Assembly: GCF_003258595.1 (NCBI RefSeq) | Contig: NZ_QHHQ01000002.1 | Location: forward strand, 434,001 to 498,000 | From: Acuticoccus sediminis | GTDB lineage: Bacteria > Pseudomonadota > Alphaproteobacteria > Rhizobiales > Amorphaceae | Reading direction: 5' to 3' | DNA length: 64,000 nt | Shown here: positions 43,102 to 61,131 of the stretch, piece after piece | Position numbering within the stretch: position 1 is the first letter of the stretch | Layout of the letters: each line of letters begins with the position of its first letter | The notes under the pieces: generated by a model | What the model was told of the DNA's origin: nothing | Seen by the model: the letters and a program-made list of their open reading frames with translations, nothing else | Database searches by the model: none | Position numbers and translations under genes: made by a program

Positions 43102-44160
43102 TCAGCGCCGGTCCGCCGCCCCTGCAGGCTCGATGGACACCCACCGGGAGAGGTCCGGACGGTCGATGGCGCGCAGGAGGCACGCCCTGGTGAGGTCGCG
43201 CCCGCACGCCAGCGCCGCGTCGGCTGCGACCTGACCGGCCAGATATGTCTCGGCGACAGGGCGGGCGGTTCCCGACAGGAGCGTGACCCGATCCGTCGCT
43301 TCCGTTGTGTCGAGAGCGTCCGGCATCGCGATCACCCGGTCGAACCGGCCCGCCGCCGGCGTCTCCCCCGGACCGATGACGAGAAGCGTGGCCGCATCCT
43401 CGCGCAGCACGATGCCCGCGTCGCGCAGCGCATCGGTCCACGACGCGTCCGCGGACGTCAGGCTCACGGCGCCGATGCGCTGGCGTGACAGGAAGGCGAC
43501 GACGGTGCCGCGCACCGCCCGGTCCAGCGCCGCGCCGACCGGCGTGCGGGCCTCGTCGGCGGTGAGGATGGCGGGCCCTTCGTCTGCGATCACGAAACGT
43601 CGGCCCCAGGCGCCGCCGGCTTCGTTCGCCTCGCCGAGCGCGGCCTCGAAGGCGAGCCGCTCGCCGTGCTCCGACGGCGCCGCGAGGCGCACCTCCCGCG
43701 CCGTCACCCCCCGGCGCGCACGCCGGCTGAGGTCGCCGAGGTAGGCGGCAAGGTCCGTCAACACGGCATCGTCGGCCTCGAAGCGCGGCATCTTGGTGGA
43801 GAGCGCGCGCCCGTCCGGCGCCGCGCCGAGGGTGACCGCACGCGCCAGAGCCTTGACGTCATAGCCCCCGTCGGGCCGCAGCGGATCGGTCAGCGCCTCC
43901 CAGACGACGGGCGGAAACTCCACCCCGCCTTCGCGGCCGCCCTCACCGTCGGCACCATGGCACCCGGCGCACGCGAAGCTCGCTGCCGGGACGCGCACAC
44001 GGCCATCGGCCAGAACCGCCGTCGCGCCGGCGCCTTCCTCGTAGAGCGCCGCGCCGGGGCCGGGCGCCTCCTCGGCGTCCGCCGCGCCGCCTGCCGCCAG
44101 CGCGCCGAGACCCAGTGTCCCGGCACCCAGCGCGATCAGGGCGGCGCGCGTCAGTCGCAT
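43102..44160 (-). CDS. Cytochrome c fused to a periplasmic-binding-like domain
   Basis: The 352-residue protein has a signal peptide (about 1-28), then a class I cytochrome c domain with the haem site CAGCH at 64-68 and a likely axial Met124 in STKMPRF. From about 150 the sequence GERLAFEAALGEANEAGGAWGRRFVI resembles the first strand and helix of type 1 periplasmic-binding proteins, but the domain is only about 200 residues, shorter than usual. It is the last gene of the multicopper oxidase operon, overlapping the Sco1 gene by ten bases. A role passing electrons to or from the oxidase is plausible but unproven. Confidence 0.85.
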   Translation of the reverse strand: MRLTRAALIALGAGTLGLGALAAGGAADAEEAPGPGAALYEEGAGATAVLADGRVRVPAASFACAGCHGADGEGGREGGVEFPPVVWEALTDPLRPDGGYDVKALARAVTLGAAPDGRALSTKMPRFEADDAVLTDLAAYLGDLSRRARRGVTAREVRLAAPSEHGERLAFEAALGEANEAGGAWGRRFVIADEGPAILTADEARTPVGAALDRAVRGTVVAFLSRQRIGAVSLTSADASWTDALRDAGIVLREDAATLLVIGPGETPAAGRFDRVIAMPDALDTTEATDRVTLLSGTARPVAETYLAGQVAADAALACGRDLTRACLLRAIDRPDLSRWVSIEPAGAADRR

Positions 44161-44756
44161 CGCGGCTGGGCACGCACGAGCGCCACGAGGTCGTCGGGTG
44201 TGACCGCCCCTCTCAGGCGTGTGTAGCGCCCCGTGCAGGGCTGGCCGACGAGGTAGGTCTCCACATGGTCTTCGAGCGGGCCCGGATGGAAGTTGAGCGC
44301 CTGCAGCAGGGGCCGGGTTCCGCGCGGCCCGCCCGTCAGCCACAGCCAGTCGGGCCCCGCCCCGAAGGTTCTCGCGGTCTCGGCGAGCCGCTCGGGCGTG
44401 TCGCCGACGGGGTCGATCGCCACCGTCACCAGCGTCGCCTCGCGCGCCTCGCCGGCGCCGAGCTCGTCGTCCACGACCATCAGCACCGCATGCACACCGG
44501 GACAGATCGTGGTGCAGGACATGTAGGTGAAGGCGAGGATCAGCGGTCGGTCGCCGGGAAGGCGCGAACGAAAGCCGCCCTCCACGCCGTCCTTGTCGCG
44601 GACCGGAAGGTCCGGCAGGCGCAGCATCTCCTCGCCCGAGACGACTTCGGTCATCGGCGTGGCGTGGTGCATGTGCTCGTGCTGCGCCGAGGCCGGCCCG
44701 AGGGGCGCCCACATCGACACGAGCGCGGCGACCGCAAGCGACTGCATCCGGTTCAT
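44151..44756 (-). CDS. Sco1/SenC family copper chaperone
   Basis: The 201-residue periplasmic thioredoxin-fold protein has a signal peptide (about 1-24), a histidine-rich start of the mature part (QHEHMHHA), and the Sco copper site: Cys81 and Cys85 in SCTTICPGVH with His164 in LEDHVETYLVG. Sco proteins deliver copper or reduce cysteines for cytochrome oxidases and related copper enzymes. Here it sits between the propeller-like protein (four-base overlap) and the cytochrome c (ten-base overlap), downstream of a giant multicopper oxidase, so copper loading of that enzyme is its likely job. Confidence 0.92.
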   Translation of the reverse strand: MNRMQSLAVAALVSMWAPLGPASAQHEHMHHATPMTEVVSGEEMLRLPDLPVRDKDGVEGGFRSRLPGDRPLILAFTYMSCTTICPGVHAVLMVVDDELGAGEAREATLVTVAIDPVGDTPERLAETARTFGAGPDWLWLTGGPRGTRPLLQALNFHPGPLEDHVETYLVGQPCTGRYTRLRGAVTPDDLVALVRAQPRCD

Positions 44757-46567
44757 CGCGGTCCCTCCTCGAGAACGATCGGTTCGAAGATGTGCCCGCC
44801 CGGCGCCGCGACGGTCACCGCGACGAGGCTCCCCGGGGGCAGGGTGTAGACGGCGCTCGACGTGCCGTCGGTCCCCGTCCTGATCGGCACGCGCTCCCGC
44901 CACGCGCCGGTGAACTCGGAGAACGTGAGGACGCCGCGCACGGCGAGCGGCGCGCCGGACCCGTCCGACAGCCTGAAGCGCAGCCCGGTGCCGTCCTCCG
45001 CGGCGACGGCGGCGATGCGGCCCTCAAGCGGCGCGTCGGGATCGTCGGGCGTCGCCACCGGCAGCGCGGAGCAGAAGGAGAGGCTGCCGAGGCCGGTGGT
45101 CGCGACGAGTTCCCAGCGCCCCGGCCCGGGGAGGCTCGCGACGGTGCGGAAGGTCCCCGCCGGCGCTTCCCGGAAGCTCCGGTCGAGGGTCGCGATCCGC
45201 CGCGGCACGCCGCCCATCAGCTTTGTCGCCGTCATGGCCGGGGCGTTGCCCATCGCGGACGCCTCGGCGATCCGGTACGCCTGACGGCTCTTCACGTTGA
45301 GCGCGAGCACGCCGTGGTCGGGGTAGAGGGAGGCGAGGAGGCCGTCGTCGACGCGGGGCGTCGCGCGCTTCTCGCCGATCGGGACCTCGCGGAACTCGGC
45401 CGCCTCGCCGCGGCCGAGGGCGACGAGGTCGAGGACGCCCACCCGGCTCTGGTCGGCCAGCATCAGGTACGCCGTCCGGTCGCTGATCATGACCTCCGAG
45501 ACGGGCACCTCGGTGCCGTCGCGGTCGCGCGCGTGGGAGACCTGCACCAACGCGCTGCGGGCGATGTCGACGATCGCCACCGGGCCGCCGGCCGGGTCGT
45601 AGGCGACCACGAAGCGCCCGTCCCCGGCGACGGCGAGCCGACGCGGATTTACAGGAACGTCGATCGCCACCGGATGGCGGGGGTCGTCCAGGTAGTGCAC
45701 GGCGAGGCGGCCCCCGGAGGCGGCGGTCAGGAGCGCGAACGGCTTGCCGTCACGGGCGAGCACGGCCGCCGCTGTCGCGGCCTCGCGCGTTCGCGCCATC
45801 ACGGCCCCGTCGCGCAGCGAGAAGGCGGCGGCGCCCTCCGTGCCCCAGACCGCGGCGGCGTCATGAGCCCCGCCCGCCAGCCCGTCCGCGACGAGCGGCG
45901 GCACCGAGGGCCCCTTGGGGACGCGCACGAGCCGCCGGGCGGCGGCGTCCTGCACCAGGGCGCCGCCGCCGGGCACCGGCACCACCGTCACCGGGCGGCC
46001 GAGGTCCCGCGCGACCTCCGTCACCGAACCGGCGGCATCGACGGCGACGAGCCGCCCCTCGTCGCTGAGCGGCAACAGGAACCGGCGCGCATGCTCGTCC
46101 GTGACGAGCGTCGCCGGACGGCTGCCGAGGCGGCTCGCCGCCAGCAGGTTGGCGGTCGCGAGCGAGAACTCCGGATCCACGAGCGTGACGGCGTCGTCCT
46201 CGGTGAGGACGCCGATGACGGGGTCGTTGAGGAAGACGGTGCCGGTGGACAGGCGGCCGGTGCGCAGGAACGCCTCGGCCGTTTCCGCGCACGGCAGGTC
46301 GGTCTCCTTCTGCCGCCGCAGCCAGCCGAAGAGGGTCAGCCCCTTCGGTGCCTCGCCGCCGCCGTGGCCGGTGATCGTCACGGTTACGGCGAACGGCTCG
46401 TGCGGGGCGATGGGCGCGGCCGGCGTGCCGTCCAGCGCCGTCAGCGTCACCTCGGCGGTGAGCGCGGGCTTCAGCTCGTCGCCCGGCTGCGCCATCGCGG
46501 TTGGGACACTAGGCACGGCCGCCAGCAGACCCGCGAGCGGGGCGGCGAGACGGGCACGGCAGCGCAT
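44753..46567 (-). CDS. Secreted beta-propeller-like protein of the multicopper oxidase operon
   Basis: The 604-residue protein has a signal peptide (about 1-26, ending TAMA) and an Ig-like first region with HEPFAVTVTITGHGG. A central part of about 350 residues consists of short, repeated strand pairs (for example GRLVAVDAAGSVTEVARDLGR and RFVVAYDPAGGPVAIVDIAR) that read like WD40/YVTN propeller blades. The last 100 residues look like another Ig-like domain. I recognise no enzyme motif. It begins nine bases after the oxidase gene and overlaps the Sco1 gene by four, so it is an integral operon member, perhaps a scaffold or electron-transfer partner. Confidence 0.75.
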   Translation of the reverse strand: MRCRARLAAPLAGLLAAVPSVPTAMAQPGDELKPALTAEVTLTALDGTPAAPIAPHEPFAVTVTITGHGGGEAPKGLTLFGWLRRQKETDLPCAETAEAFLRTGRLSTGTVFLNDPVIGVLTEDDAVTLVDPEFSLATANLLAASRLGSRPATLVTDEHARRFLLPLSDEGRLVAVDAAGSVTEVARDLGRPVTVVPVPGGGALVQDAAARRLVRVPKGPSVPPLVADGLAGGAHDAAAVWGTEGAAAFSLRDGAVMARTREAATAAAVLARDGKPFALLTAASGGRLAVHYLDDPRHPVAIDVPVNPRRLAVAGDGRFVVAYDPAGGPVAIVDIARSALVQVSHARDRDGTEVPVSEVMISDRTAYLMLADQSRVGVLDLVALGRGEAAEFREVPIGEKRATPRVDDGLLASLYPDHGVLALNVKSRQAYRIAEASAMGNAPAMTATKLMGGVPRRIATLDRSFREAPAGTFRTVASLPGPGRWELVATTGLGSLSFCSALPVATPDDPDAPLEGRIAAVAAEDGTGLRFRLSDGSGAPLAVRGVLTFSEFTGAWRERVPIRTGTDGTSSAVYTLPPGSLVAVTVAAPGGHIFEPIVLEEGPR

Positions 46568-46576
46568 CGCCGCGCC

Positions 46577-49500
46577 CTACCGCGTAGCGGTGCCGGCGGA
46601 CGCGGCGTCGGACACGGTGAGAAGCCCCCACGTGCCCGCCGAGCGCAGGAAGAGCGGGCCGTCGTGCCACACGGCGACGCCCTTCGTCGCCGCCGGCCAC
46701 AGCCACGCCGAGATCGCCTTGCCCGGTGCCAGAAGGGCCGAGCGCGGGAAACCGAAGCCGGGGAAGAGGTCGAGGTAGGAGTAACCGTTCATCGCGAAGG
46801 CCCGCTGGCGCGCCCTGCCGCCGGGATGGACCACGCGGATCACCAGCTGCTCCCCCGTCTCGGCCCTGAGGTTCATCGTTTCCGGCGCGGCCACGAGGTA
46901 GTCGGCCGGGAAGCGGTACGCGTTGAGGTCCTGGTGCCGGCGGATCGTCCCCTCCGCCCCGAGGTCGGTACCCGGCAGCAGCTCGCGCAGCACGCGGTGG
47001 AAGCCCGGCGACATGTAGCTGACCCCCGCCTCGCCGAGATCGTAGCTGTCGTCGCAGATGCCGCAGTCCGGCACCATCATGGCGGTCCGCCCGTCCGCGT
47101 CCCTGACCGGGCCGCCCGACGAGGGGGCGTCCTTCCAGCGCCAGGGGAGGGGCTTGTCGCTGTCCCAGAGGTTCAGCCCGTCCTGCCAGAAGAGGACGAA
47201 CTCGCGCAGGCGCACCGTCTCTCCGTCCTCGGCCTCGGCCGAATAGGTCATCGCGTTGCCCTGTCCTTCCGGCCGCGCGTAGCCGGCCGCGCAGCGCACC
47301 CAGCCGTCGCCGGCGTCGGCGTCGCAGTGGACGCCGGTGTCGCCCACCGCCGTCCACGTCACCGGGGTGACGTCGATGGCGCCGAAGAGGCCGTGCGGGC
47401 CCTGGGTGATGACGTCGGCCGCCGGATGCACCGGGACCGCGCCGAACGCGTAGGGGATGAAATGCGTGTACTCGTCCAGCGCCTCGAGGAGGGCCGCCTT
47501 GAGCTGAGTTGCGAGCACCTCGGTGATATCGGCCCGGTTGCCGGTCCCCGTTCCGTCCGCCGCCGTGAAGAGCGTCGCGTCGCGGTCCGGCGCGGCGGCC
47601 GGCCCGGTGAGCGTCACGGTCTCGCCGCCGCGGGCGAGCGTCACGACGTAGCCGCGCCCGAGAACCGTAGCGAGGCCCTGTTCCGACCCCTGCGCGCTGG
47701 CGACGGTGATGCCGAGGGGCGCATCGCCGCTGAGACCAAGGGTGTCGGGGGTGATCCGCGCGGCGAGGCGATCCTCCGCGCCGAACGCGAGCGCGTCCCG
47801 CGCCGCGCCCGGGTCCGATGGCAGCGCCGAGCGCACACGCCCCGCATATGCGACGATCACGTTCGAGACCCTGACGCCGCCGCGGCCGCCCTCGAGCGCC
47901 GGCTTGTTGTAGCCATAGCCCGCCGGAACGTCGCGGATCAGGTCGAGCCCGGGCAGGCCCAGCGACAGTGCGAGACGCGCGCTCGGCCGCAGATTCGCGT
48001 TGGAGGGGAGGCCGTGGCCGGTGTCGGGGAGCGGCTCGAGGAGCCCGACCGACCGTCCGGTCCCGTCGAAGTCGTCGTCGACCTCGGGCGTCGGGTCGTT
48101 GTTGAGGGTCACGATGCGCGGCAGCAGGGCGTCGCCCAGCAGGTCGCGCATGGCCGGCTCCTTCGCTTCGCCCATGAGGTTGAGGAGGCGCAGCCGCAGG
48201 CAGTCCCCCGCCGTCACCCGCAGCACGAAGGGTTCCGGCTGCTCGTCGTACGCGGCGCGGATCGCCTCGATCACCCCGTCGGCGGTGAGCGCACCGAACC
48301 CGCCGCCGTCGCCGAGCGACAGCACCCCGAGGTCGGCCGGCGACAGGAGCGCCAGGAACAGTCCGTCCGGGTCGGTCAGCTTCTCGCCGTACCGTGTCCC
48401 GTCTTGGTCCGGGAAGACGCGGCGTGTCTCCACGGCGACGATGGCCGTCTCGACGATGCGCTGCGTCTCGCCCTTCTGCGGATCCGGAATGGGGCAGGCG
48501 AGCCCGTTCTCGGACCTGGCGTCGTCGGCGACGGCCACGTTCTCCGGCTTGACCCGGGGCAAGGTGAGGAGTCTCTCGCCGATCGCGGCCGGATCGGTCC
48601 CCGGGGACGGTGCGACGGCGAGAGTGTTCGGGTCTTTCGCGTCCTCGTCCTCGAAGATGCGGATGAGGCCCCAGGCCCCGTTCCACAGGGCGTCGACGGT
48701 GCCGAAGCTGTAGAAATAGTCGGACGAGCGCATCGGCACGCCGTCCGCCGACAGGTCGTCACCCGCCGGGATCGCCGCGAACTCGGTGGCCTCGGCGCTC
48801 AGGCCGACGTCGAAGCGCAGCGAGCCCTGCATCTCGAAGTGTTCCGAGATGCCGATCTCCTGCGCGAAGGAGAACCCTTCCGCATTGTCGCACTCCGCGA
48901 GCGCCTCCTCGTAGAGCGCCCACCACCCGATCTCGTCGTCGGTCATGAGGCCGTCGCTCTTGAGGCGTTCGGGGACGCCGTCCAGCCAGAGGCGGTACTG
49001 CGACGGACGGGTGTTGATCAGTTCGTCCCGCTCGAAGCACCGTGCCTGGAGGTTCGGACTGTCCTTGAAGCGGCCGGAGACGCCGAGCGGCTGCATCCCC
49101 CGCATCCAGTGCTGGTCGATGTTGCGCTTGAAGGGTTGGCCGACGACGTTGAACGTGTGCTGCACCTCCTGCGCGCCCTGGATCATGCGCAGCACGATCC
49201 GGTCGTCGTGATAGGCCTGCAGCACCGGCGTCTCGGGATCGCCGTGGAGGCGCGAGCTCAGCGCCAGCCCGAGGTCGCCGCCTTCCGCGTCGGTGCGCTG
49301 GTAGGCGACCGAGCATTCCTCGAAGCTCCGGTTCTCGAGCGCCTCGACGACGGGGCTCTTACCCTCCGGTTCGCGGCCGGCGATCGTCATCGGCTTCAGC
49401 GCGCAGTCGGGCGACGCGCTGCCATCCTTCTCCTTCGTCCCGACGCGCAGCGGGATGGGCGCGCCGCGATAGTTGACGAGGTAGGGGTCGTGGTGGTCGA

Positions 49501-52500
49501 CCGAGATCGACTCCGGGCGCTCCGGCGCCGCGATCGGCTGGGCCATCGCCGCATGCGCGCCCGGCTTCTCCCCGTTGCCGCCGGCGGCCATCTGGCGGTA
49601 GGCGACGAGGTGCTTGCGCAGCGCGTCGATCTCGCTTGAGCCGCGGAAGAGGTCGCCGACATACCACCATTTATGATGGTCGTCGCGGTTCACGCCGCCC
49701 GCCACCCATGCCGGCGGGACCTCGCCGGGATAGGACCGGCTCGTCGTCTCGTCGCGCACGGGCGGGGTGAGGCACACGTTCTCCATCGCCCAGGGCTGCA
49801 GGCGCCACAGCGCCTCGCACCAGAGCTTGGCCATGCCCTCCAGCGTGCCCGGGTCCTTGCCCTCTTTGGCGACGTTGGCGATCAGCGAGTGCGGCGTGCG
49901 CTGGCGCGGATCGTAGAGCAGCGCGAAGTCGGCGATGGAGAGGGCGAACTCGCGGTAGTTCGGGTGCTCGAACGCGCCGCTGAAGCGCTCCGCGTCGGCC
50001 GCGTTGCGTGTGGTCACGATGCGCTTGCGCGTCCCCTCCCAGGGCTTGCTGCCCCACGCGACGCTCGTCAGCCGGTCCGTGTCCGGCAGCGGCCCGACGC
50101 AGCCCTCGTCCGCGTCGGAAGCCTGCTTCTCGCTCGGGCAGACGCTGGGAAGATAGTGGGACGGCACCTGCGAGCCCTCGGACCACTCGCCGGAGTGGTG
50201 CGTGCCCGGCTCGACAACGAGGGCCGCGTAGAAGCCGTGCTGCTGGATCGAGGAGGGGCCGAAGTGGTCGTGCGTGAAGACCGTGCGCATGGTCCGGTCC
50301 ACCGTGTCGCCGTTGTCGGCGATCGACAGGATCGGGTCGGCGAACCAGCGCTGCGTCGTCGTCTGGAACAGCTCGGGGCTGGCCGCGCGCACCTTGCGCC
50401 AGTGCTCCTGGCCCGGCTCTTCCGCGGCCTTGCATTCTGCCTCGCCCGCCGGTGTGAGCGAGCCCTCGCCCGTCACGGTGCCGCCCACCGCCGCACGCGC
50501 CGCGCAGCGCCGCACGAGGAGCTCGTCCGGCGCGAAGGTGCCGTCCTCGTAGTTGAAGCCGTTGCCGGACCCGTCGGACGAGGTGACGTCGAACTTCACC
50601 AGGTGGATGTGCTGGCCGATGGTGTCGGTCGGCGTCTTCACCTGGAAGTCGTCGAGTTCCAGCTCCTTCGGCAGCTCGTTGGTGTGGCGGAACTCGATGC
50701 ACTCGCCGGAGAGGGCGCGGAAGAAGAACGGCTCCTCGCTGTCGGAGATCTTCGGGGAGACGCGCCAGGGCGGTCCGTCCTTGTACCGTCCCGCCTCCGC
50801 CGTCAGCACGTCGATGCGCGCCTGCGGATCATGCCAGCCGGCGCGGTTGACGATCATGTCGAGCTGCACGGCGGAGACCTCGTAGCGCCGGAACCCGTTC
50901 AGCATCGGGTCGGGGATGAAGTCCTCCCCGTCGATGAGGCCCTTCACGAACGGATCCGGCCCCCTGGTGGTCGCCGTCAGGATGCCGTCGCTCCGGAACG
51001 GCGCGCGGGCGGCGATGCCGACCCCGCACGGGTCGGCGAACGGCGCCCCCGGCTTGGGCGGGCTGGCGTTGACTCCGAAGAGCGCGGTCGGCGCCGGCGC
51101 GGCGGTATCGCCGGGCAAGGGGGCGCGCGTCGTCGGGTAGCCGCCCTCGGTGAACGCGACCCCGTGGGAGGCGGCGCCGCCGGTCGGCGACGGGGCCGCG
51201 ACCACCGAAGCAAGCTTCAGCGCGGTGCCGCTCTTGCCGTCCTCCTCGTAGAGGTGCCCGTTCCAGTGGAAGCCCATCGCTGCGCGCTCCAGCCGCGTGC
51301 CCCAGTGGCTCAGAGTTTCGATGTTGGCGCGCGTGAGCTTGGCCGAGAGGTCGCCGAGCGCGAACGCCTTGGCGACGAGCTGCGCGGCGAACGCCTCGCG
51401 CCGCTCGCCCTCGAGGGCCTTCACCGGCGTTCCGTCCGCGACGGTCTCGGGCACCTCGATCCCCATCTTGCGCTCGGACCGGTCGGCGACGACGTGGCGG
51501 CCGAGGCCGCCGTCGAGCCACTGCGGCTCGCCCGCCGTGTCGACCGCGCTCCGGCCGTCGATGGTGCCGTCCAGACCGGGCGAGGGGCCGAAGTTGCGGG
51601 CGATGTCGAGCGGCGCCTGCGGCGGTCGGTGCCCCGGCTGGCCGGCGATGTAGAACGGGTAGCCGGGCATCGGCGTCGCCGCCTCGGCGCTGAGCTGGCC
51701 GTCGGCGTCGACGTCGCCGTCGTCGGCATAGGTCGGGATCAGCGGCAGCGGCTCGCCGGGGAGCGGCACCAGGGCGGGGATCGGCGTGCCGAGCCCGTCG
51801 CCGGTCGCGGGATCGGGCGCGAGCCACCGGCCCGAGATGCGGTCCACGCTGCCGGTTCGCCGGTGCGCGTTGTCCGGCCGGAAGTCGACCGAAAGGCCCT
51901 CGTCGGCCTGCCCGTCGGGCAGCCGCCGCGTTCCGTCCTCGAAGACGTCGTGCACGCGCCACAGCTCCCACATGCCCTGCGCGAAGTGCGGGTAGAGGTG
52001 GCAGTGAAAGATCGAGTCGCCGATCGTGCGGTTGCGGTTGCCGGAGCCGGCGGTGTCCCACCAGCCCTTGTCGCCGCCGTTCACCCCGCGAAGCCCGCCG
52101 TGGTAGATGTTGTAGGTGAAGCCCTGCTGCGGGCCGACGGTCTGGCTGTCGAGATAGCTGCCGCGGTTGGGATCGTTGCCGGCGAACCACTGATGGGCGT
52201 GCAGGTGGAAGACGTGCGTCTCCTTCGGCCCGGCATGAAAGTTCCGGAACACGACGGGATCGTTGAGGTAGCTGTGATGCACGTTGGACGGGTCGTCCGC
52301 GTACCACTCCAGCAGCGCCGGGTCGCCGTTCGCCCATGAGGTGAGGAAGAACTCCTCGTAGAGGCACTCCATGCACTCCGCGGCGGGGCCGATGCCCTTG
52401 CGGTTGGCGAGCACCATCGGCCCCATGCCGGACGCCCCGTAATTGATCCCGAAGCCGTCGCGCACGCCGGCGAGCTGGCCGAACTGCGCGAGCTCGCGGA

Positions 52501-53824
52501 AGTTCTTGGTGTAGAACGTCTTCAGCTCGTCGTGGAAGAAGACGGAGAACTCGCGGAACGCGCGGTAGGCCGGCTCGACCGTCGGCGCCATCCCGTCGGT
52601 GTCGTCCCGGCAGTTGGCGCCCGGCAGGCGTTCGTCGCACCAGATGATCGCGCTGACGTCGGTGTGCACGAGCTGCACGTGCCTGGCGCTGGCGAAGGCC
52701 TCCTGCCCGGCGTCGAGCGCGTGCGCCATGTTGAGGATCGGAACCCCGCCCGCGCCGATCGCCTCGTAGTCGATGGCGCCCCGCCGCGCGTGGCGCGGGC
52801 CGTTCGGGTCCACGGGCCAGGCCGTGTCGAGCGCGTGGGCGCTGACCTGGCTGCGGTACCAGCGTGAACCGGCCCGCTCGGCGAGGACGGCCCCGAACGC
52901 CCCGTGGACGATGGACCCGCCGTCACCCTCGCCGCCCGCCGGCGCCGCCAGCGAGGCGAAGAAGTAGGTCCCCTCCTGGTCGATGCCGTAGAGGCAGTGG
53001 AAGCTCTCGCCCGGCGGCACGGCGCCGGTCCCGCGGCAGGCGGGGTGGACGTCGGCCTCGCCGGGGAGCGGCTCCGGATGAAGGCCCTGCGCCACGAGGT
53101 TCACGAGCCGGGTCTGCGGCCAGTCCGGTTCCGCCGCGGGGAGATTGTCGCCAACGCCGTTCTGCGCCGCCTCGGCGCCGAGGCAGTCCGCCTCCGTATG
53201 CTCGATCCACCGCTTCTCGTTCGCCGCGGGCTCGCCGTCGCGCCTCGGCGCCTCCCGAACGTGGACCCGGACCTTGCGGCGTCCCGCGTCGTGCGGCTCC
53301 GCGGCCTTGCAGAAGTCGGAGGAGAAGTCCGGCGCGTCCGGCAACGCGAGCAGGTTTTCCACCTTCACGAGCAGCTTGTCGCCGACGTTGACCCTGAGCA
53401 CCATCGGGCGAGGCCGCTCGCAGTCCTTCAGCCGCACGTCGCCGGGCGACAGGTCCCCGGCCACGGTCTCCGTCCCGTCCTTCCCGTCGCGGCACAGCGT
53501 GGCATCGACATGGCCGGCGTCACTGCCGTCCGGGGCCGCCGGCGCGAGGTCGCGGCGCAGCGCGAAGATCATGCCGAACGGGTTGTACGAGCCGAACCGG
53601 TTGTAGACGAGCGTCTGATCGAGCGCCGCGAGGTCGGCGCAGACCACACGCCCCGTCCCGTCCGCGGTCACACCCATGCAGGCCGCCTCGAACGCTTCCT
53701 CCGCCGCCGTCTCGGCCGTCGCCGGGCCGGCGGCCGGCGCCGAAATTGCCCCAATCATGGTCAGGAGGGAGAGGGTCGCTGCCTGGACATGCGCGCGCGG
53801 ACTGAATCGGGCAATGGTCATCAT
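46577..53824 (-). CDS. Giant secreted multicopper oxidase, MnxG/McoA type
   Basis: The 2415-residue protein has a Sec-type signal peptide (about 1-38, no twin arginine). Copper motifs are visible: HVFHLHAHQW (537-546) and FHCHLYPHFAQGMWELW (606-622) give type 1 and type 3 ligands, including Cys608, His613 and Met618. HIHLVKFD (1072-1079) and FTHDHFGPSSIQQHG (1183-1197) give further histidines, and QHTFNVVGQPF (1555-1565) marks another cupredoxin-like unit. The HCH motif comes early, not near the C-terminus as in laccases, as known for giant manganese oxidases such as MnxG and McoA. The last 700 residues hold no HCH motif. Two adjacent ATGs (53824, 53821) could both start it. Oxidation of Mn(II) or another metal outside the cell is the leading hypothesis. 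Confidence 0.88.
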   Translation of the reverse strand: MMTIARFSPRAHVQAATLSLLTMIGAISAPAAGPATAETAAEEAFEAACMGVTADGTGRVVCADLAALDQTLVYNRFGSYNPFGMIFALRRDLAPAAPDGSDAGHVDATLCRDGKDGTETVAGDLSPGDVRLKDCERPRPMVLRVNVGDKLLVKVENLLALPDAPDFSSDFCKAAEPHDAGRRKVRVHVREAPRRDGEPAANEKRWIEHTEADCLGAEAAQNGVGDNLPAAEPDWPQTRLVNLVAQGLHPEPLPGEADVHPACRGTGAVPPGESFHCLYGIDQEGTYFFASLAAPAGGEGDGGSIVHGAFGAVLAERAGSRWYRSQVSAHALDTAWPVDPNGPRHARRGAIDYEAIGAGGVPILNMAHALDAGQEAFASARHVQLVHTDVSAIIWCDERLPGANCRDDTDGMAPTVEPAYRAFREFSVFFHDELKTFYTKNFRELAQFGQLAGVRDGFGINYGASGMGPMVLANRKGIGPAAECMECLYEEFFLTSWANGDPALLEWYADDPSNVHHSYLNDPVVFRNFHAGPKETHVFHLHAHQWFAGNDPNRGSYLDSQTVGPQQGFTYNIYHGGLRGVNGGDKGWWDTAGSGNRNRTIGDSIFHCHLYPHFAQGMWELWRVHDVFEDGTRRLPDGQADEGLSVDFRPDNAHRRTGSVDRISGRWLAPDPATGDGLGTPIPALVPLPGEPLPLIPTYADDGDVDADGQLSAEAATPMPGYPFYIAGQPGHRPPQAPLDIARNFGPSPGLDGTIDGRSAVDTAGEPQWLDGGLGRHVVADRSERKMGIEVPETVADGTPVKALEGERREAFAAQLVAKAFALGDLSAKLTRANIETLSHWGTRLERAAMGFHWNGHLYEEDGKSGTALKLASVVAAPSPTGGAASHGVAFTEGGYPTTRAPLPGDTAAPAPTALFGVNASPPKPGAPFADPCGVGIAARAPFRSDGILTATTRGPDPFVKGLIDGEDFIPDPMLNGFRRYEVSAVQLDMIVNRAGWHDPQARIDVLTAEAGRYKDGPPWRVSPKISDSEEPFFFRALSGECIEFRHTNELPKELELDDFQVKTPTDTIGQHIHLVKFDVTSSDGSGNGFNYEDGTFAPDELLVRRCAARAAVGGTVTGEGSLTPAGEAECKAAEEPGQEHWRKVRAASPELFQTTTQRWFADPILSIADNGDTVDRTMRTVFTHDHFGPSSIQQHGFYAALVVEPGTHHSGEWSEGSQVPSHYLPSVCPSEKQASDADEGCVGPLPDTDRLTSVAWGSKPWEGTRKRIVTTRNAADAERFSGAFEHPNYREFALSIADFALLYDPRQRTPHSLIANVAKEGKDPGTLEGMAKLWCEALWRLQPWAMENVCLTPPVRDETTSRSYPGEVPPAWVAGGVNRDDHHKWWYVGDLFRGSSEIDALRKHLVAYRQMAAGGNGEKPGAHAAMAQPIAAPERPESISVDHHDPYLVNYRGAPIPLRVGTKEKDGSASPDCALKPMTIAGREPEGKSPVVEALENRSFEECSVAYQRTDAEGGDLGLALSSRLHGDPETPVLQAYHDDRIVLRMIQGAQEVQHTFNVVGQPFKRNIDQHWMRGMQPLGVSGRFKDSPNLQARCFERDELINTRPSQYRLWLDGVPERLKSDGLMTDDEIGWWALYEEALAECDNAEGFSFAQEIGISEHFEMQGSLRFDVGLSAEATEFAAIPAGDDLSADGVPMRSSDYFYSFGTVDALWNGAWGLIRIFEDEDAKDPNTLAVAPSPGTDPAAIGERLLTLPRVKPENVAVADDARSENGLACPIPDPQKGETQRIVETAIVAVETRRVFPDQDGTRYGEKLTDPDGLFLALLSPADLGVLSLGDGGGFGALTADGVIEAIRAAYDEQPEPFVLRVTAGDCLRLRLLNLMGEAKEPAMRDLLGDALLPRIVTLNNDPTPEVDDDFDGTGRSVGLLEPLPDTGHGLPSNANLRPSARLALSLGLPGLDLIRDVPAGYGYNKPALEGGRGGVRVSNVIVAYAGRVRSALPSDPGAARDALAFGAEDRLAARITPDTLGLSGDAPLGITVASAQGSEQGLATVLGRGYVVTLARGGETVTLTGPAAAPDRDATLFTAADGTGTGNRADITEVLATQLKAALLEALDEYTHFIPYAFGAVPVHPAADVITQGPHGLFGAIDVTPVTWTAVGDTGVHCDADAGDGWVRCAAGYARPEGQGNAMTYSAEAEDGETVRLREFVLFWQDGLNLWDSDKPLPWRWKDAPSSGGPVRDADGRTAMMVPDCGICDDSYDLGEAGVSYMSPGFHRVLRELLPGTDLGAEGTIRRHQDLNAYRFPADYLVAAPETMNLRAETGEQLVIRVVHPGGRARQRAFAMNGYSYLDLFPGFGFPRSALLAPGKAISAWLWPAATKGVAVWHDGPLFLRSAGTWGLLTVSDAASAGTATR

Positions 53825-53874
53825 CAGATCAATCAGCCAGTTAAGTCTTGATGCGAAATGCGGTGGTCGGCAAA

Positions 53875-53897
53875 ATTATACTTAATGCTATCATTAA
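53875..53897 (-). promoter_or_regulatory. Promoter and dyad of the multicopper oxidase operon
   Basis: Read leftward, 53880-53875 is a perfect TATAAT -10 hexamer, about 50 bases before the oxidase start. Directly upstream is the dyad TTAATG-CTAT-CATTAA (53882-53897), which fills the -10/-35 spacer. No good -35 hexamer is present, so activation by a regulator bound at the dyad is likely. The whole gap 53825-53944 is far richer in A and T than the genes around it and also serves the divergent protease gene. Confidence 0.6.
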
Positions 53898-53944
53898 TAC
53901 TGGATATTGCCAAACGGCTGCGAGCCGAGCATTGAGAGAGCCCG

Positions 53945-56827
53945 ATGCCAGCATTTCATGACATCAGAAAACTCGTTGAAGGATTTGAAGATTTCCCGGC
54001 ATTGCTGGGGCAGGATGCGCCCGGTATTGCACGAATTCGATCGATTATTTCCAGTGAGCGTCCCGTGGCCAGACTCGGCGCCACGGGGATCCCCGATTCT
54101 GTCCCCGACGAGATGACCGAGCTGCCTAAGCTTGGCGAGTGGGCGGGTTTCATCGCCCTCGCGTCGGCCTCCGTCGGCCAGATCCGGGTCGAGGTCGGCG
54201 GGCGGACGTTCGCGGTCGGCACGGCCTTCCGGGTCGGCAATGACGACCGCCGCGTCGCGACGGCGGCGCACGTCGTCGGCACGATGCTGCCACACCAGAC
54301 GTCGATCGCGGCCGGGATCGACCCAGTGCCGAAGCGCCGGGACGTTCCGTCCGCCTTCCTCCCGGCTCACGTCTTCTTCGAAGCGGCGGAGGCCGACGGC
54401 CGGGCGTTCGCGGCCGAGACCGTCGACGTCGAGGCGGTCGAGCTGCTCTCGGCGGACTACGACATCATGATCTGCCGGCTGGCGGCGGATTCGCGGCGCC
54501 CCTCGCTCCGCCTCGCCGACCCCGGTCAAGCGGGGGAGGACAGGCCGATGTGCGTCGTCGGCTATCCGATCACGCCGCGAACGGCCGACAAGGCCCTCTA
54601 CGACAAAGTCTTCGGGGCCGCGCCGCAGACGCCGGCGGAGGCCGCGATGGAGCCGCGCAAGTGCGCCTCGCCGGGGCTCATGAAGCGTCACGGCACCCGC
54701 TTCAGCACCTCGCACGACGCCACCACGCTGCCCGGCAGCTCGGGATCGCCCTGCATCGCGCTCGACGATGGCGGCGTGGTCGGACTTCACTTCCGCGGCC
54801 GCCAGTCGAGCGGCGATCTCAACGCGCTGCGGCATCTCGCACTGCTGGCGGAGACGCCGGAGCTCGCCGAGCGGATGGATCTCGCGGCGAACGGCCCGCC
54901 GTCCGCGCCGTTCGGCGGGAAGGCGGCGACCTGGACCTCCCGCCAGCCCGACGCGGCGCCCGACGACGGGGGGACGGACGAAGGCGCGGTCCCGTCCGGC
55001 GCGCCGCCCGCCTTCAGCGCGTCGCCTGCCGTGCTGGCCGACCGGCGGGACATTCGCGACCGCCACTACCGCCCCTCGCTCATCAGGGCGGAGGCGAGGG
55101 TGTGCCCGGAAGCCGGCACGCTGCACCTCCTGGAGCAGCAGTCGGACGGCGACTGTGTCGGCTACGCGATGGCCGCTGCCATCAACCGGCACCTCACCCA
55201 GCAGAACCGCCTTCCCCCCGGCGGGGTCAGCGCGCGGATGATCTACGAGATGGCCCGCGCGCACGACGAGTTCGTCGACGACCTGCCCGCCGGGACGTCG
55301 CTGCGCGGCGGCATGAAGGGGTTCTTCCACAACGGCGTCTGCCCCGCGGAGCTGGTGCCGAAGACGCCAGCCTTCCACCTGACGGTGGAGATGGCCAAGG
55401 CGGCGCGCAGCGTCGCCCTCGGCGCCTACTACCGCCTGTCCGCCAGCCTTTCCGACTTCCAGATGGCGATCCAGGAGGTCGGTGCCGTCGTCGTCTCGGC
55501 CCGGCTCCATTCCGGCTGGGCGGAGCCGGTGGACGGGCGCATCGTGAACACGGGCGAGCGGCGCGCCGGCCACGCCTTCGTGCTCGTCGGCTACGACTCC
55601 GAGGGGTTCCTCGTCCAGAACTCCTGGGGGCCGGACTGGGGGGGCTTCGACGGACTGAAGGGCGTCGCCCACTGGAGCTACGGGGACTTCGCCCAGAACG
55701 TGATCGACGCCTGGGTCCTGCAGCTCGCCCCGTCCGCGCCGCAGGCGCACAACATCCAGCTCCGCGCCTATGGGCCCGACGACCCGGCGACCGACGCGTC
55801 CCCGCCCGACCCGCTCGCCGCGCTCCCCGAGCCGCGCCGCAGCGCGATCATCGGGCATATCGTGCATGCCGAGCGCTCGGGCCTCGTCGATCTCGATCGG
55901 CTCGGCGCGGGCCAGGCGACGCTCCGCGAGACCGCCATGTGGCTCGCCGACGACGAGAGCTGGGAGCGCTATCCGCGGCTCGTCTTCGTCTTCCATGATC
56001 CGTTCCTGGGAGCCGAGGCGGCGGCGCGCCTGACGATGCACACGGTCGAGCGCTTCAAGGCGGCCGGCACCTATCCCATCAACGTCCTCTACGGCGCGGA
56101 CGAGCTCAGGTCGCTGACCGCCAGGATGCGCGACGAGGCCGACTTCTGCCGCAAGATCTCCGGCGGAGCCGCGGACCTCACCGCCTACCTCGACCGGCGG
56201 GCGCAGGTGGTGGCGAAGCCGATGCTGGAAGGCTATGCCACCGGGCTGACGGAGGCCGCCGCGCCGGGCGGCGCGCTGTGGCGCGTCCTCGCCTCGATCG
56301 GCTTCGAGGCCTTCCGACGCCCGAAGCCGAAAGGAGGGGAGGACAGGCGCGCGGTCCATGTGGTGGCGTTCGGACTCGGATCGTTCGCCGCGCAGGTCGC
56401 GATCGCCAGCCTCGCCGATGCGGGGTTCTGCCACGACCACGCCCACGCGTTGCCTCTGGGCGCGGCCCCGTCCGATCCCGGGGCGCCGCGGCGCAAGGCG
56501 TACAAGCTGGGGTCGGTCAGCCTGCTCGCGCCCGTCGCACCGCTGTCCGCTCACGGCGACGGCGACCCCTGGTGGATCTGGCCCAAGCGCGAGCCGGCCG
56601 TCTACACGCTGGGACCGGACCGCCCGTCCGGCGCGGCGATGCCGGGGTACCGGGGGGACTGGGGCGACCTCGTCTCCGCCCTGCTGCCGGCTACCAGCCA
56701 CCGCCCGCGTGGCGCCGATCAGGGCGCGGGGCGGCTCGCCGAGCTCCTCATCGACGGCAGCGTCCTCAACGACGTGCTGCGCAGGATCACCGGCGGGGAC
56801 TCGCTGGCGCCGCTGAAGCGGTTCTAG
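53945..56827 (+). CDS. Trypsin-like/papain-like double protease with alpha/beta-hydrolase-like C-terminus
   Basis: The 960-residue protein lacks a signal peptide and should be cytoplasmic. After about 60 helical residues comes a trypsin-fold domain with His109 (ATAAHVVG), Asp173 (DYDIMI) and Ser266 (PGSSGSP). A linker of about 60 residues leads to a papain-like domain with Gln398, Cys404 (SDGDCVGYA), His543 (GHAFVLVGY) and Asn559 (VQNSWGPDWGG). Residues about 620-950 resemble an alpha/beta hydrolase, but the nucleophile elbow reads AFGLGS, with Gly where Ser is expected. Both protease triads are complete. Its gene is divergent from the oxidase operon, 120 bases away. I know no characterised protein with this order of domains. 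Confidence 0.85.
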   Translation: MPAFHDIRKLVEGFEDFPALLGQDAPGIARIRSIISSERPVARLGATGIPDSVPDEMTELPKLGEWAGFIALASASVGQIRVEVGGRTFAVGTAFRVGNDDRRVATAAHVVGTMLPHQTSIAAGIDPVPKRRDVPSAFLPAHVFFEAAEADGRAFAAETVDVEAVELLSADYDIMICRLAADSRRPSLRLADPGQAGEDRPMCVVGYPITPRTADKALYDKVFGAAPQTPAEAAMEPRKCASPGLMKRHGTRFSTSHDATTLPGSSGSPCIALDDGGVVGLHFRGRQSSGDLNALRHLALLAETPELAERMDLAANGPPSAPFGGKAATWTSRQPDAAPDDGGTDEGAVPSGAPPAFSASPAVLADRRDIRDRHYRPSLIRAEARVCPEAGTLHLLEQQSDGDCVGYAMAAAINRHLTQQNRLPPGGVSARMIYEMARAHDEFVDDLPAGTSLRGGMKGFFHNGVCPAELVPKTPAFHLTVEMAKAARSVALGAYYRLSASLSDFQMAIQEVGAVVVSARLHSGWAEPVDGRIVNTGERRAGHAFVLVGYDSEGFLVQNSWGPDWGGFDGLKGVAHWSYGDFAQNVIDAWVLQLAPSAPQAHNIQLRAYGPDDPATDASPPDPLAALPEPRRSAIIGHIVHAERSGLVDLDRLGAGQATLRETAMWLADDESWERYPRLVFVFHDPFLGAEAAARLTMHTVERFKAAGTYPINVLYGADELRSLTARMRDEADFCRKISGGAADLTAYLDRRAQVVAKPMLEGYATGLTEAAAPGGALWRVLASIGFEAFRRPKPKGGEDRRAVHVVAFGLGSFAAQVAIASLADAGFCHDHAHALPLGAAPSDPGAPRRKAYKLGSVSLLAPVAPLSAHGDGDPWWIWPKREPAVYTLGPDRPSGAAMPGYRGDWGDLVSALLPATSHRPRGADQGAGRLAELLIDGSVLNDVLRRITGGDSLAPLKRF

Positions 56828-58608: not shown

Positions 58609-61131
58609 ATGCGAACTTCACCCTGGCTCGTGGCCACCTACGTGGTCATCGTTGCCCTCGGCGTGCTCATCGCACTGCCGAACGTCATCCCCCAATCTAC
58701 CCTCGACCGACTGCCGTCTTGGCTGCCCCACGAGCGTGTCGCGCTCGGGCTCGACCTGCGCGGCGGGTCACATCTGGTCCTCGAGGTCGACCGCGCCGCA
58801 CTCGTCAAGGAGCGTCTCGAGACCCTCGCCGGCGACGCGCGCATCGCGCTGCGCACCGCCGGCCTGCGCGGTGCAACGGTCCACCGCACCGACGACGACG
58901 TCACCGTCCGCCTCGCCGGCGCGGACCAGCGCGAGGCGGCGCTGTCGGCCCTCGACGGGCTCGTCGGCACGGTCGGCATCTCCGGCGCGTCGGACCTTTC
59001 CTTCGGCGGCGACGGCACCGCCATCATCCTTACGCCCACCGATGCCGGAATCGCCGAGCGCATGAGCGCGGCGGCCGAGCAGAGCGTGGAGATCATCCGC
59101 CAGCGCATCGACCAGGTCGGCGTCGCCGAGCCGACGATCCAGCGCGCCGGGCCGGACCGCATCCTGGTCCAGCTTCCCGGCGTGCAGGACCCGGCCCGCA
59201 TCCGCGAGCTCCTCGGCTCCACCGCGAAGCTGTCCTTCCACCTCCTCGACGCTACCCGGCCCGGCAACACCCTTCCCGCCGGGGTGAGCCTCCTCCACGA
59301 CGACGCCGGCCAGGCCTACCCGGTCGAGGATCACGTGGAGCTCTCCGGCGACAGGCTGCGCGACGCCCGCGCCGGCTTCGACCAGCGCACCCACGAGCCG
59401 GTCGTGAACTTCCGCTTCGATACCGCCGGCGCGAGCCGCTTCGCCGACATCACCAGCAAGAACGTCGGCCATCCCTTCGCAATCGTCCTCGACGGCAAGG
59501 TGCTGTCCGCGCCGGTGATCCGCGAGCCGATCACCGGCGGCTCCGGCCAGATCTCGGGACGCTTCACGGTGCAGGAGGCGACGGACCTCGCGGCACTGCT
59601 GCGCGCCGGCGCCCTCCCGGCCAGGCTTACCGTGATCGAGGAGCGCACGGTCGGCGCCGACCTCGGCTCCGACGCCATCCGCATGGGCGTCCTGACCGGC
59701 CTCGTCGGGTTCGCGCTCGTCGTCGGCTTCATGGTGCTGCTCTACGGGCCGTGGGGTCTGCTGGCGAACCTCGCGCTCGGGCTCAACGTCGCGCTGACGT
59801 TCGCCGGCCTCACCCTCCTCGGCGCCACGCTCACTCTCCCCGGCATCGCCGGCATCGTGCTCGGGATCGGTCTCGCGGTCGACGCCAACGTCCTCATCAA
59901 CGAGCGGATCAGGGAGGAGACGCGCAAGGGGCGGGGCGCCCTCGCCGCGCTCGACGCGGGCTTCGGCCGCGCCTACGCGACCATCGTCGACAGCAACGTC
60001 ACCAGCCTCATCGCGACCGTGCTCCTCTTCTGGTTCGGCAGCGGGCCGGTGCGCGGCTTTGCCGTCACGATGGGCCTCGGCATCGCGATCTCGATGTTCA
60101 CCGCGGTCTCCATCGTGCGCGTCTCGATGGTCGCGATCGTGCGGCGGCTGAAGCTCAAGCGGCTCGACATCCGGCCGCTCCTGCCGGTCCGCCTCGTGCC
60201 GGACGGGACGCACATCCGCTTCATGCGGGCCCGCTTCTTCGGGATCGGCATGTCGGCGGTGCTGTCGCTGGCCTCCATCGGCCTCTTCATCTCGCCGGGC
60301 CTCAACTACGGCGTCGACTTCCGCGGCGGCATCCAGATGGAGGTGGTGACCGACGGTCCCGCCGACCTCGCCACCTTTCGCGGCAAGCTCGACGGGCTCG
60401 GCCTCGGCGACGTGGCCCTCCAGGAGTTCGGCGACCAGAGCCACATGCTCGTGCGCGTCGAGCGCCAGCCGGGCGGGGAGGAGGCGCAGACCGCCGCCAC
60501 CACCCGCATCAAGACCGCCGTCGCCGAGGTCGACCCCTCCGCGACCGTGGCGCGCACCGAGGTGGTCGGCCCCAAGGTCTCGGGGGAGCTCGCGACGGCC
60601 GGAATCCTCGCCGTCGTCCTCGCGAGCCTGGCGATGCTCGTCTACATCTGGGTCCGCTTCGAGTGGCCGTTCGCCGTCGGCGCCATCGCGACGCTCGTGC
60701 TCGACGTGACGAAGACGGTCGGGTTCTTCGCCCTCACCGGCCTCGACTTCAACCTGACCGCCATCGCCGCGCTCCTGACGCTCATCGGCTACTCGGTGAA
60801 CGACAAGGTGGTCGTCTACGACCGCATGCGTGAGAACATGCGGCGCTACAAGGCGATGCCGCTGCGCGACCTGATCGACCTCTCCATCAACGAGACGCTG
60901 TCGCGAAGCCTCTACACCTCCGTCACCGCCTTCCTCGCGATCCTGCCGATGGCGATCTGGGGCGGCAGCGCCGTGGAGAGCTTCGCCGTGCCGATGGCGT
61001 TCGGGATCATCATCGCGGCGTCGTCCTCGGTGTTCATCGCCGCGCCGATCCTGCTCTTCCTCGGCGACTGGCGGCGCCGGCGCACGGAGGAGCGCGCGCC
61101 GGCCGCCGCCGACGCGCCCGTAGCCACCTGA
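58609..61131 (+). CDS. secDF: Protein translocase subunit SecDF (fused SecD-SecF)
   Basis: The 840-residue inner-membrane protein joins SecD and SecF. The SecD half has a first helix at about 7-25, [14 protein letters not shown] at about 47-60 and a large periplasmic domain. The SecF half begins near 535 with [13 protein letters not shown] at about 566-578 and has the [17 protein letters not shown] motif near 727-743. Twelve membrane segments are expected. SecDF uses the proton gradient to pull proteins through SecYEG. Neither yajC nor the usual rhizobial neighbours are beside it, so this could be an extra copy. It is followed after 14 bases by the Vsr-like gene. Confidence 0.95.

Follow-up and report, generated by a model that had tools for sequence, protein, structure and literature searches.

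A distant, longer relative of the mnxG operon and an adjoining divergent protease gene in Acuticoccus sediminis

The DNA studied here, referred to below as the window, is a stretch of 64,000 nucleotides from Acuticoccus sediminis (contig NZ_QHHQ01000002.1, positions 434,001 to 498,000), a genus that the NCBI lineage places in the Hyphomicrobiales and Amorphaceae. Four genes lie head to tail on its minus strand and encode a giant multicopper oxidase (P0001) of 2415 amino acids (aa), a beta-propeller protein, a SCO copper chaperone and a cytochrome c fusion. A divergent gene 120 base pairs (bp) from the oxidase gene encodes a protein of 960 aa, P0012 (Table 1). The initial annotation, made from the sequence alone, had read the four genes as one coupled unit of a likely alphaproteobacterium. 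Its coordinates and spacings (+9/-4/-10) were reproduced: 9 bases separate the oxidase and propeller genes, the propeller and SCO genes overlap by 4 bases, and the SCO and cytochrome genes by 10. The guessed alphaproteobacterial host also fits, the same-genus genome being that of Acuticoccus mangrovi. As judged by eye, all four operon proteins have N termini resembling Sec signal peptides.

Table 1. Features of the oxidase operon and its divergent neighbour (positions within the window)
Feature	Position	Strand	Remarks
MnxG-like giant multicopper oxidase, 2415 aa	46577..53824	-	profile, PDB and copper-motif matches
beta-propeller protein, predicted secreted, 604 aa	44753..46567	-	AlphaFold2 model; relative in L121 matches Pfam YNCE-like propeller
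SCO1/SenC copper chaperone (CxxxC, distal His; His/Met-rich stretch after signal)	44151..44756, ATG at 44756	-	
c-type cytochrome fusion (CAGCH, Met-Pro; C-terminal binding-protein-like region)	43102..44160, ATG at 44160	-	
divergent protein, 960 aa: trypsin-like, papain-like and C-terminal hydrolase-like domains	53945..56827	+	
shared intergenic region, 120 bp, sigma-70-like consensus match on either strand	53825..53944	.	

Relatives were collected by scanning genome contigs with the peptides HFAQGMW and NGFNYED, which gave at least 463 confirmed relatives; the 79 named loci kept are the best-scoring ones, not a random sample. The initial annotation had proposed a look for the same four-gene order in other genomes. 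The order oxidase, propeller, SCO and cytochrome is present in 52 of the 79 named loci and absent from 12, while 15 are too short to tell. Because the identical order recurs in this way, the grouping of the four genes is not due to chance.

Judging by its sequence, the 2415-aa protein is a distant, longer relative of MnxG. The only NCBIfam family that it matches is the equivalog MnxG (NF041487), with 507 bits and an E-value of 8.7e-152 over seven stretches. This score lies under the curated equivalog cut-off of 3100 bits, and P0001 is therefore filed in the wider MnxG-like family and not as an MnxG equivalog. In Pfam, it reaches only 14.1 bits with Cu-oxidase_2, which is under the cut-off. A sequence search of the PDB up to E 10 returned a single match, MnxG of Bacillus (9bxa, E 8.4e-62). 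For P0005, the oxidase relative from locus L022, 9bxa is again the best match (E 4.3e-98), followed by small laccases (E 3.8e-5). Residues 411-1215 were modelled with AlphaFold2 at low confidence (mean predicted local distance difference test score, pLDDT, 66.0; predicted template modelling score 0.81). In a Foldseek search with this model, 9bxa was the sole match at E<=0.001 (E 3.9e-12), the laccases reaching E 6.7e-3 at best. Together with the intact copper ligands, the profile and PDB matches uphold the initial annotation of a giant oxidase of the MnxG kind.

P0001 has the full set of twelve ligands for the type 1 and trinuclear copper centres. Under the assignment of motifs A to D used for the multicopper oxidase family, site C consists of H537, H540 and H542; site D of H607-C608-H609, H613 and M618; site A of H1072 and H1074; and site B of H1185 and H1187. 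The motifs thus follow one another in the order C-D-A-B (positions 537, 607, 1072 and 1185), as they do in 9bxa. In an alignment of 81 proteins (the window, L022 and the 79 named loci), ten of the ligands are kept in all 81, and H1185 and H1187 of site B in 80, the protein of L062 being cut by the contig end. All twelve are also found in six of six further proteins. H613 and M618 were partly selected for, because the scan used the peptide HFAQGMW; the remaining sites were not. Opposite H613, 9bxa has an alanine, which is explained by its title, the entry being that of an H340A mutant.

The partner proteins are recognisable to different degrees. Pfam gives no match over the cut-off for the propeller protein; its AlphaFold2 model (mean pLDDT 86.7) matches propellers of many kinds, YVTN and AztD among them. 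The SCO protein matches SCO1-SenC with 41.7 bits (cut-off 22.8). Its CxxxC motif is present in all 61 best matches and its distal histidine in 60, the remaining one having a gap at this position of the alignment; the stricter pattern CxxxCP occurs in 34 of the 61. The cytochrome fusion matches Cytochrom_C with 26.4 bits (cut-off 21.3). CxxCH and Met-Pro are kept in the 18 copies selected for alignment, and CxxCH in 60 of 61 best matches, the exception being L090. The C-terminal region of the window's cytochrome aligns with a periplasmic-binding-protein domain of its relatives, in which Peripla_BP_6 is matched with E 1.8e-15 (L121), 6.5e-47 (L086) and 8.8e-27 (L093). The region is shorter in the window and has no Peripla_BP_6 match.

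A similar operon is known from Pseudomonas putida GB-1, for which Table 4 of PMC11409713 gives mnxG, a YVTN propeller, two SCO proteins, a cytochrome c/ATP-binding cassette (ABC) binding protein and SurA. The window shares with it the kinds of protein and the order oxidase, propeller, SCO and cytochrome c/binding protein, but it has one SCO gene, a shorter binding-protein-like region and the divergent protease gene. Its oxidase is also longer (2415 aa versus a MnxG model length of 1894) and scores under the equivalog cut-off. According to PMC8218464, the operon of Pseudomonas OF001 resembles that of GB-1. The idea of a "complete module" in the initial annotation thus holds in that the four-gene grouping is real and common among relatives; it is not new, since P. 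putida GB-1 and Pseudomonas OF001 have similar gene orders and the operon type has been described for the former (PMC11409713). The four genes are a distant, longer variant of the known mnxG-type operon.

Other manganese-oxidising systems share some features. We know of no SCO/cytochrome operon for MnxG of Bacillus sp. PL-12 (9bxa), which shares with P0001 the order of the copper motifs and the sequence around them and gives its best fold match. The Bacillus protein, a 1227-residue chain, has MnxE and MnxF as partners (PMC5622069). The mofABC genes of Leptothrix discophora and the mof operon of Rubrivivax A210 combine a large oxidase with a cytochrome c gene, the latter operon also with a copper metallochaperone; this likeness is one of description, and the account in PMC8218464 differs in having a Mip-type gene, mofB, and in naming no propeller. 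With both mnxG and mcoA knocked out, P. putida formed no Mn oxide in the conditions used (PMC11930936). The same article cites a preprint by Kurdi et al. (2022), according to which Mn-oxidase genes of this class occur in 682 of 2197 genomes.

When the window, L022 and six further loci (L121-L126) are added to the 79 named loci, 58 of the 87 have the four-gene order, 13 lack it, and 16 are of insufficient length. The thirteenth negative is L124, a plasmid record of Roseivivax marinus whose downstream partner genes are split over several frames, through either sequencing errors or decay. No partner was found at L059, L060, L070, L079, L082 and L089, and the propeller is the only partner at L064, L074, L087 and L091. 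All three partners are present but divergent at L084, and at L090 the propeller is followed by two subtilase-like frames and then SCO. Of the 64 named loci whose length allows a judgement, 10 thus show neither a cytochrome nor a SCO partner. The giant oxidases of Nitrosomonas (L060, L079) and Nitrospira (L070, L082) have no propeller, SCO or cytochrome downstream.

Among the matches listed, oxidase relatives occur in Paracoccus, other Paracoccaceae, Methylobacterium, Nitrosomonas, Nitrospira, Myxococcota and more. In samples of whole genomes, few match the MnxG model: of 385 from the class, four do (good matches in the window's own genome and G131, weak ones in G045 and G343), and of 398 from the phylum also four (good in its own genome, G677 and G729, weak in G723). 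Pseudomonas MnxG, sought with this model, was found over the cut-off in none of the 385 and none of the 398 genomes. With P0001 as query, 3 of 199 genomes of the order match, including its own and two weak ones. Matches were obtained in 30 plasmid records, and in 11 of these a single place covers >=80% of P0001; the carriers listed include Paracoccus, Roseivivax, Shinella and Methylobacterium. Of the 13 best plasmid rows, 12 are annotated "hypothetical protein" and the remaining record is unannotated, so the potential for manganese oxidation may be under-annotated.

The window operon was probably acquired horizontally, to judge by the place of its oxidase among related sequences. Counting the window's own genome, two of ten genomes in the host family carry the oxidase, as do two of eight in the genus. 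An oxidase tree of 84 rows was built by a quick search without bootstrap and rooted at the midpoint, leaving out L034, an apparent duplicate of L031, and L050 and L076, which have split frames. The window falls into a clade of 14 rows with a Shimodaira-Hasegawa-like approximate likelihood ratio support of 99 (inner sets 97 and 96); of the other 13, 11 carry a Paracoccaceae label and two are plasmids, from Roseivivax marinus and Paracoccus aminovorans. The copy of A. mangrovi falls into a different clade. This genome (G599, ranked in the same genus as the window) is represented by both L072 and L122, as 14136 of 14136 31-mers of L122 occur in L072. The position of the window among Paracoccaceae and of the A. 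mangrovi copy elsewhere is read as the result of separate horizontal acquisitions, though gene loss or paralogy may instead underlie this pattern.

The divergent gene is the part of the locus worth following. P0012 matches Trypsin_2 with 51.4 bits (cut-off 27.6) over residues 92-281, and its papain match is borderline (20.6 bits against a cut-off of 20.7). The residues taken to be catalytic (H109, D173 and S266 of the trypsin part; C404, H543 and N559 of the papain part) are kept in all 12 full-length relatives, the window included. No signal peptide is evident by eye. All 12 full-length genes are divergent and beside the oxidase: in the window, in nine of the 79 named loci (L025, L026, L028, L029, L030, L032, L039, L044 and L050; 13 of the 79 have less than 3 kb of upstream sequence for this search) and in L124 and L125. 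Within the window's 14-row clade, 11 rows have the protease, L073 has the trypsin part only, and L027 and L037 have none. Pairwise identities of protease and oxidase go together (rho 0.63 over 66 pairs of 12 loci, reached in 0 of 2000 shuffles). These sequence comparisons indicate that the protease is co-inherited with the oxidase. Among 289 genomes of the class, P0012 is found in 11, its own included; the other ten matches are partial, and that of G131 lies far from the oxidase of that genome.

The type of protease changes with the clade. In the six-row A. mangrovi clade (L033, L035, L046, L048, L072 and L122), a caspase-domain protein of about 900 aa takes the place of P0012, in L122 as judged by profile. 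A single profile comparison of shallow alignments suggests that the caspase type and the window protein share a domain (probability 84.5, E 6.9e-6). The shared domain, called hydrolase-like on account of a GHSAG motif seen by eye in the caspase type of L072, has AFGLG in the window protein, so the serine seems to have been lost there. The types are thus trypsin, papain and hydrolase-like in one clade, hydrolase-like and caspase in the other, and elsewhere trypsin with or without subtilase: trypsin parts alone lie near the oxidase at L061 and L068, trypsin and subtilase genes at a Shinella locus, and a subtilase gene directly follows the cytochrome at L022 and L077. In Methylocystis silviterrae (L041:19987-20955), a 322-codon frame directly after the cytochrome gene is a relative of the caspase proteins' N-terminal portion (E 1.4e-38).

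At 20 chosen loci, we also examined the longest frame on the minus strand that ends no more than 900 bases upstream of the oxidase frame; some of these frames may be false. Five match Peptidase_C14, 11 have no Pfam match and four belong to non-protease families (L031, L042, L058 and L066); the absence of a protease family from 15 of the 20 argues against a necessary link between protease and oxidase. As to anti-phage defence, P0012 has no PADLOC match up to E 0.01; the PADLOC model "caspase" is matched by caspase proteins from two relatives, and the model "subtilase" by the L022 subtilase. The one literature search aimed at the divergent gene, on MnxG with caspase, found no paper. It may tentatively be proposed, as somewhat less likely than not, that a divergently transcribed multidomain protease belongs to the alphaproteobacterial mnx locus as its fifth component. 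The exchange of protease parts on a shared hydrolase-like domain would then suggest a dedicated proteolytic switch, which might mature or turn over the oxidase system or else bring about self-destruction tied to extracellular mineral formation.

Taken as a whole, the locus is probably a divergent mnxG-type operon for an exported, SCO-metallated Mn(II) oxidase with an accessory propeller and cytochrome fusion, horizontally acquired together with the protease gene. Oxidation of Mn(II) by P0001 is likely from its sequence relationships. The oxidase would be exported, the co-encoded SCO assisting in its loading with copper. Mn(II) would be oxidised, probably in one-electron steps, the electrons passing via the type 1 copper and the trinuclear cluster to O2. 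Accessory roles in assembly or in substrate or electron handling may fall to the propeller and the cytochrome c/binding-protein fusion. An Acuticoccus-type host would have gained the operon from a Paracoccaceae pool along with the divergent protease gene.

Several points weigh against this proposal. P0001 stays far below the equivalog cut-off of MnxG, P0005 has weak matches to small laccases and also to nitrite reductases, and the model of the catalytic half is of low confidence. The conservation of site D is partly built in by the HFAQGMW pattern of the scan, and the tree is a quick, midpoint-rooted one without bootstrap. Unlike in Pseudomonas, no second SCO or SurA was found among the ten flanking open reading frames (ORFs) scanned, and no sigma-54 consensus in the oxidase/protease intergenic region. 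A limited literature search found no functional datum for the oxidase's clade.

The foremost alternative is that P0001 is a MnxG homologue by descent and oxidises Fe(II), Cu(I) or phenolic compounds in a copper-handling or laccase-like operon. In sequence it is distant from those MnxG proteins that have been tested, genes for HpaB and a flavin reductase adjoin the operon (flanking ORF scan), and P0005 matches small laccases. This alternative is unlikely: MnxG is the sole PDB sequence match of P0001 up to E 10, its fold matches to laccases are weak, and it is accompanied by the accessory genes known from the mnxG operon of PMC11409713.

The initial annotation had further suggested a link between metal oxidation and the electron-transfer chain. 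Mn(II) electrons would then pass from the oxidase to the cytochrome c of the operon and on into the respiratory chain, and the module would conserve energy; a cytochrome c, with CxxCH and Met-Pro in the 18 copies aligned, stands in order behind the oxidase in 52 of the 79 named loci, and cytochrome c maturation genes play a role in Mn oxidation by P. putida (PMC11409713). This is very improbable, as the oxidase retains a complete O2-reducing cluster, the Nitrosomonas and Nitrospira loci lack all three partners, and ten judgeable loci have neither cytochrome nor SCO. Multicopper oxidases pass electrons to O2 at their own trinuclear cluster.

For an mnxG-type operon that oxidises Mn(II), co-inherited divergent proteases would give a new handle on why cells do so, and culturable Paracoccus strains could serve to test the operon.

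Some further observations concern the surroundings. Two sigma-70-like matches were found within 53800-53990, against 0.4 expected. Control by sigma-54 is unsupported: the window has 38 consensus sites with <=2 mismatches, where 47 would arise by chance alone. The identification of the 2415-aa protein as a conventional small oxidase was rejected, as Cu-oxidase_3 matches three other proteins of the host genome instead. These three, frames of 498, 495 and 603 aa for conventional multicopper oxidases, lie at G000:C15:25069-30419 and G000:C2:868240-869493. A 732-aa frame at G000:C3:212401-212655 matches an animal haem peroxidase family with 31.1 bits (cut-off 25) over 77 of 530 positions and is a doubtful MopA-like candidate. 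Within the window, 58609-61131 encodes a fused SecDF protein, near a DUF2270 membrane protein, with 75% identity to a protein of the Xaviernesmea oryzae genome (L052).

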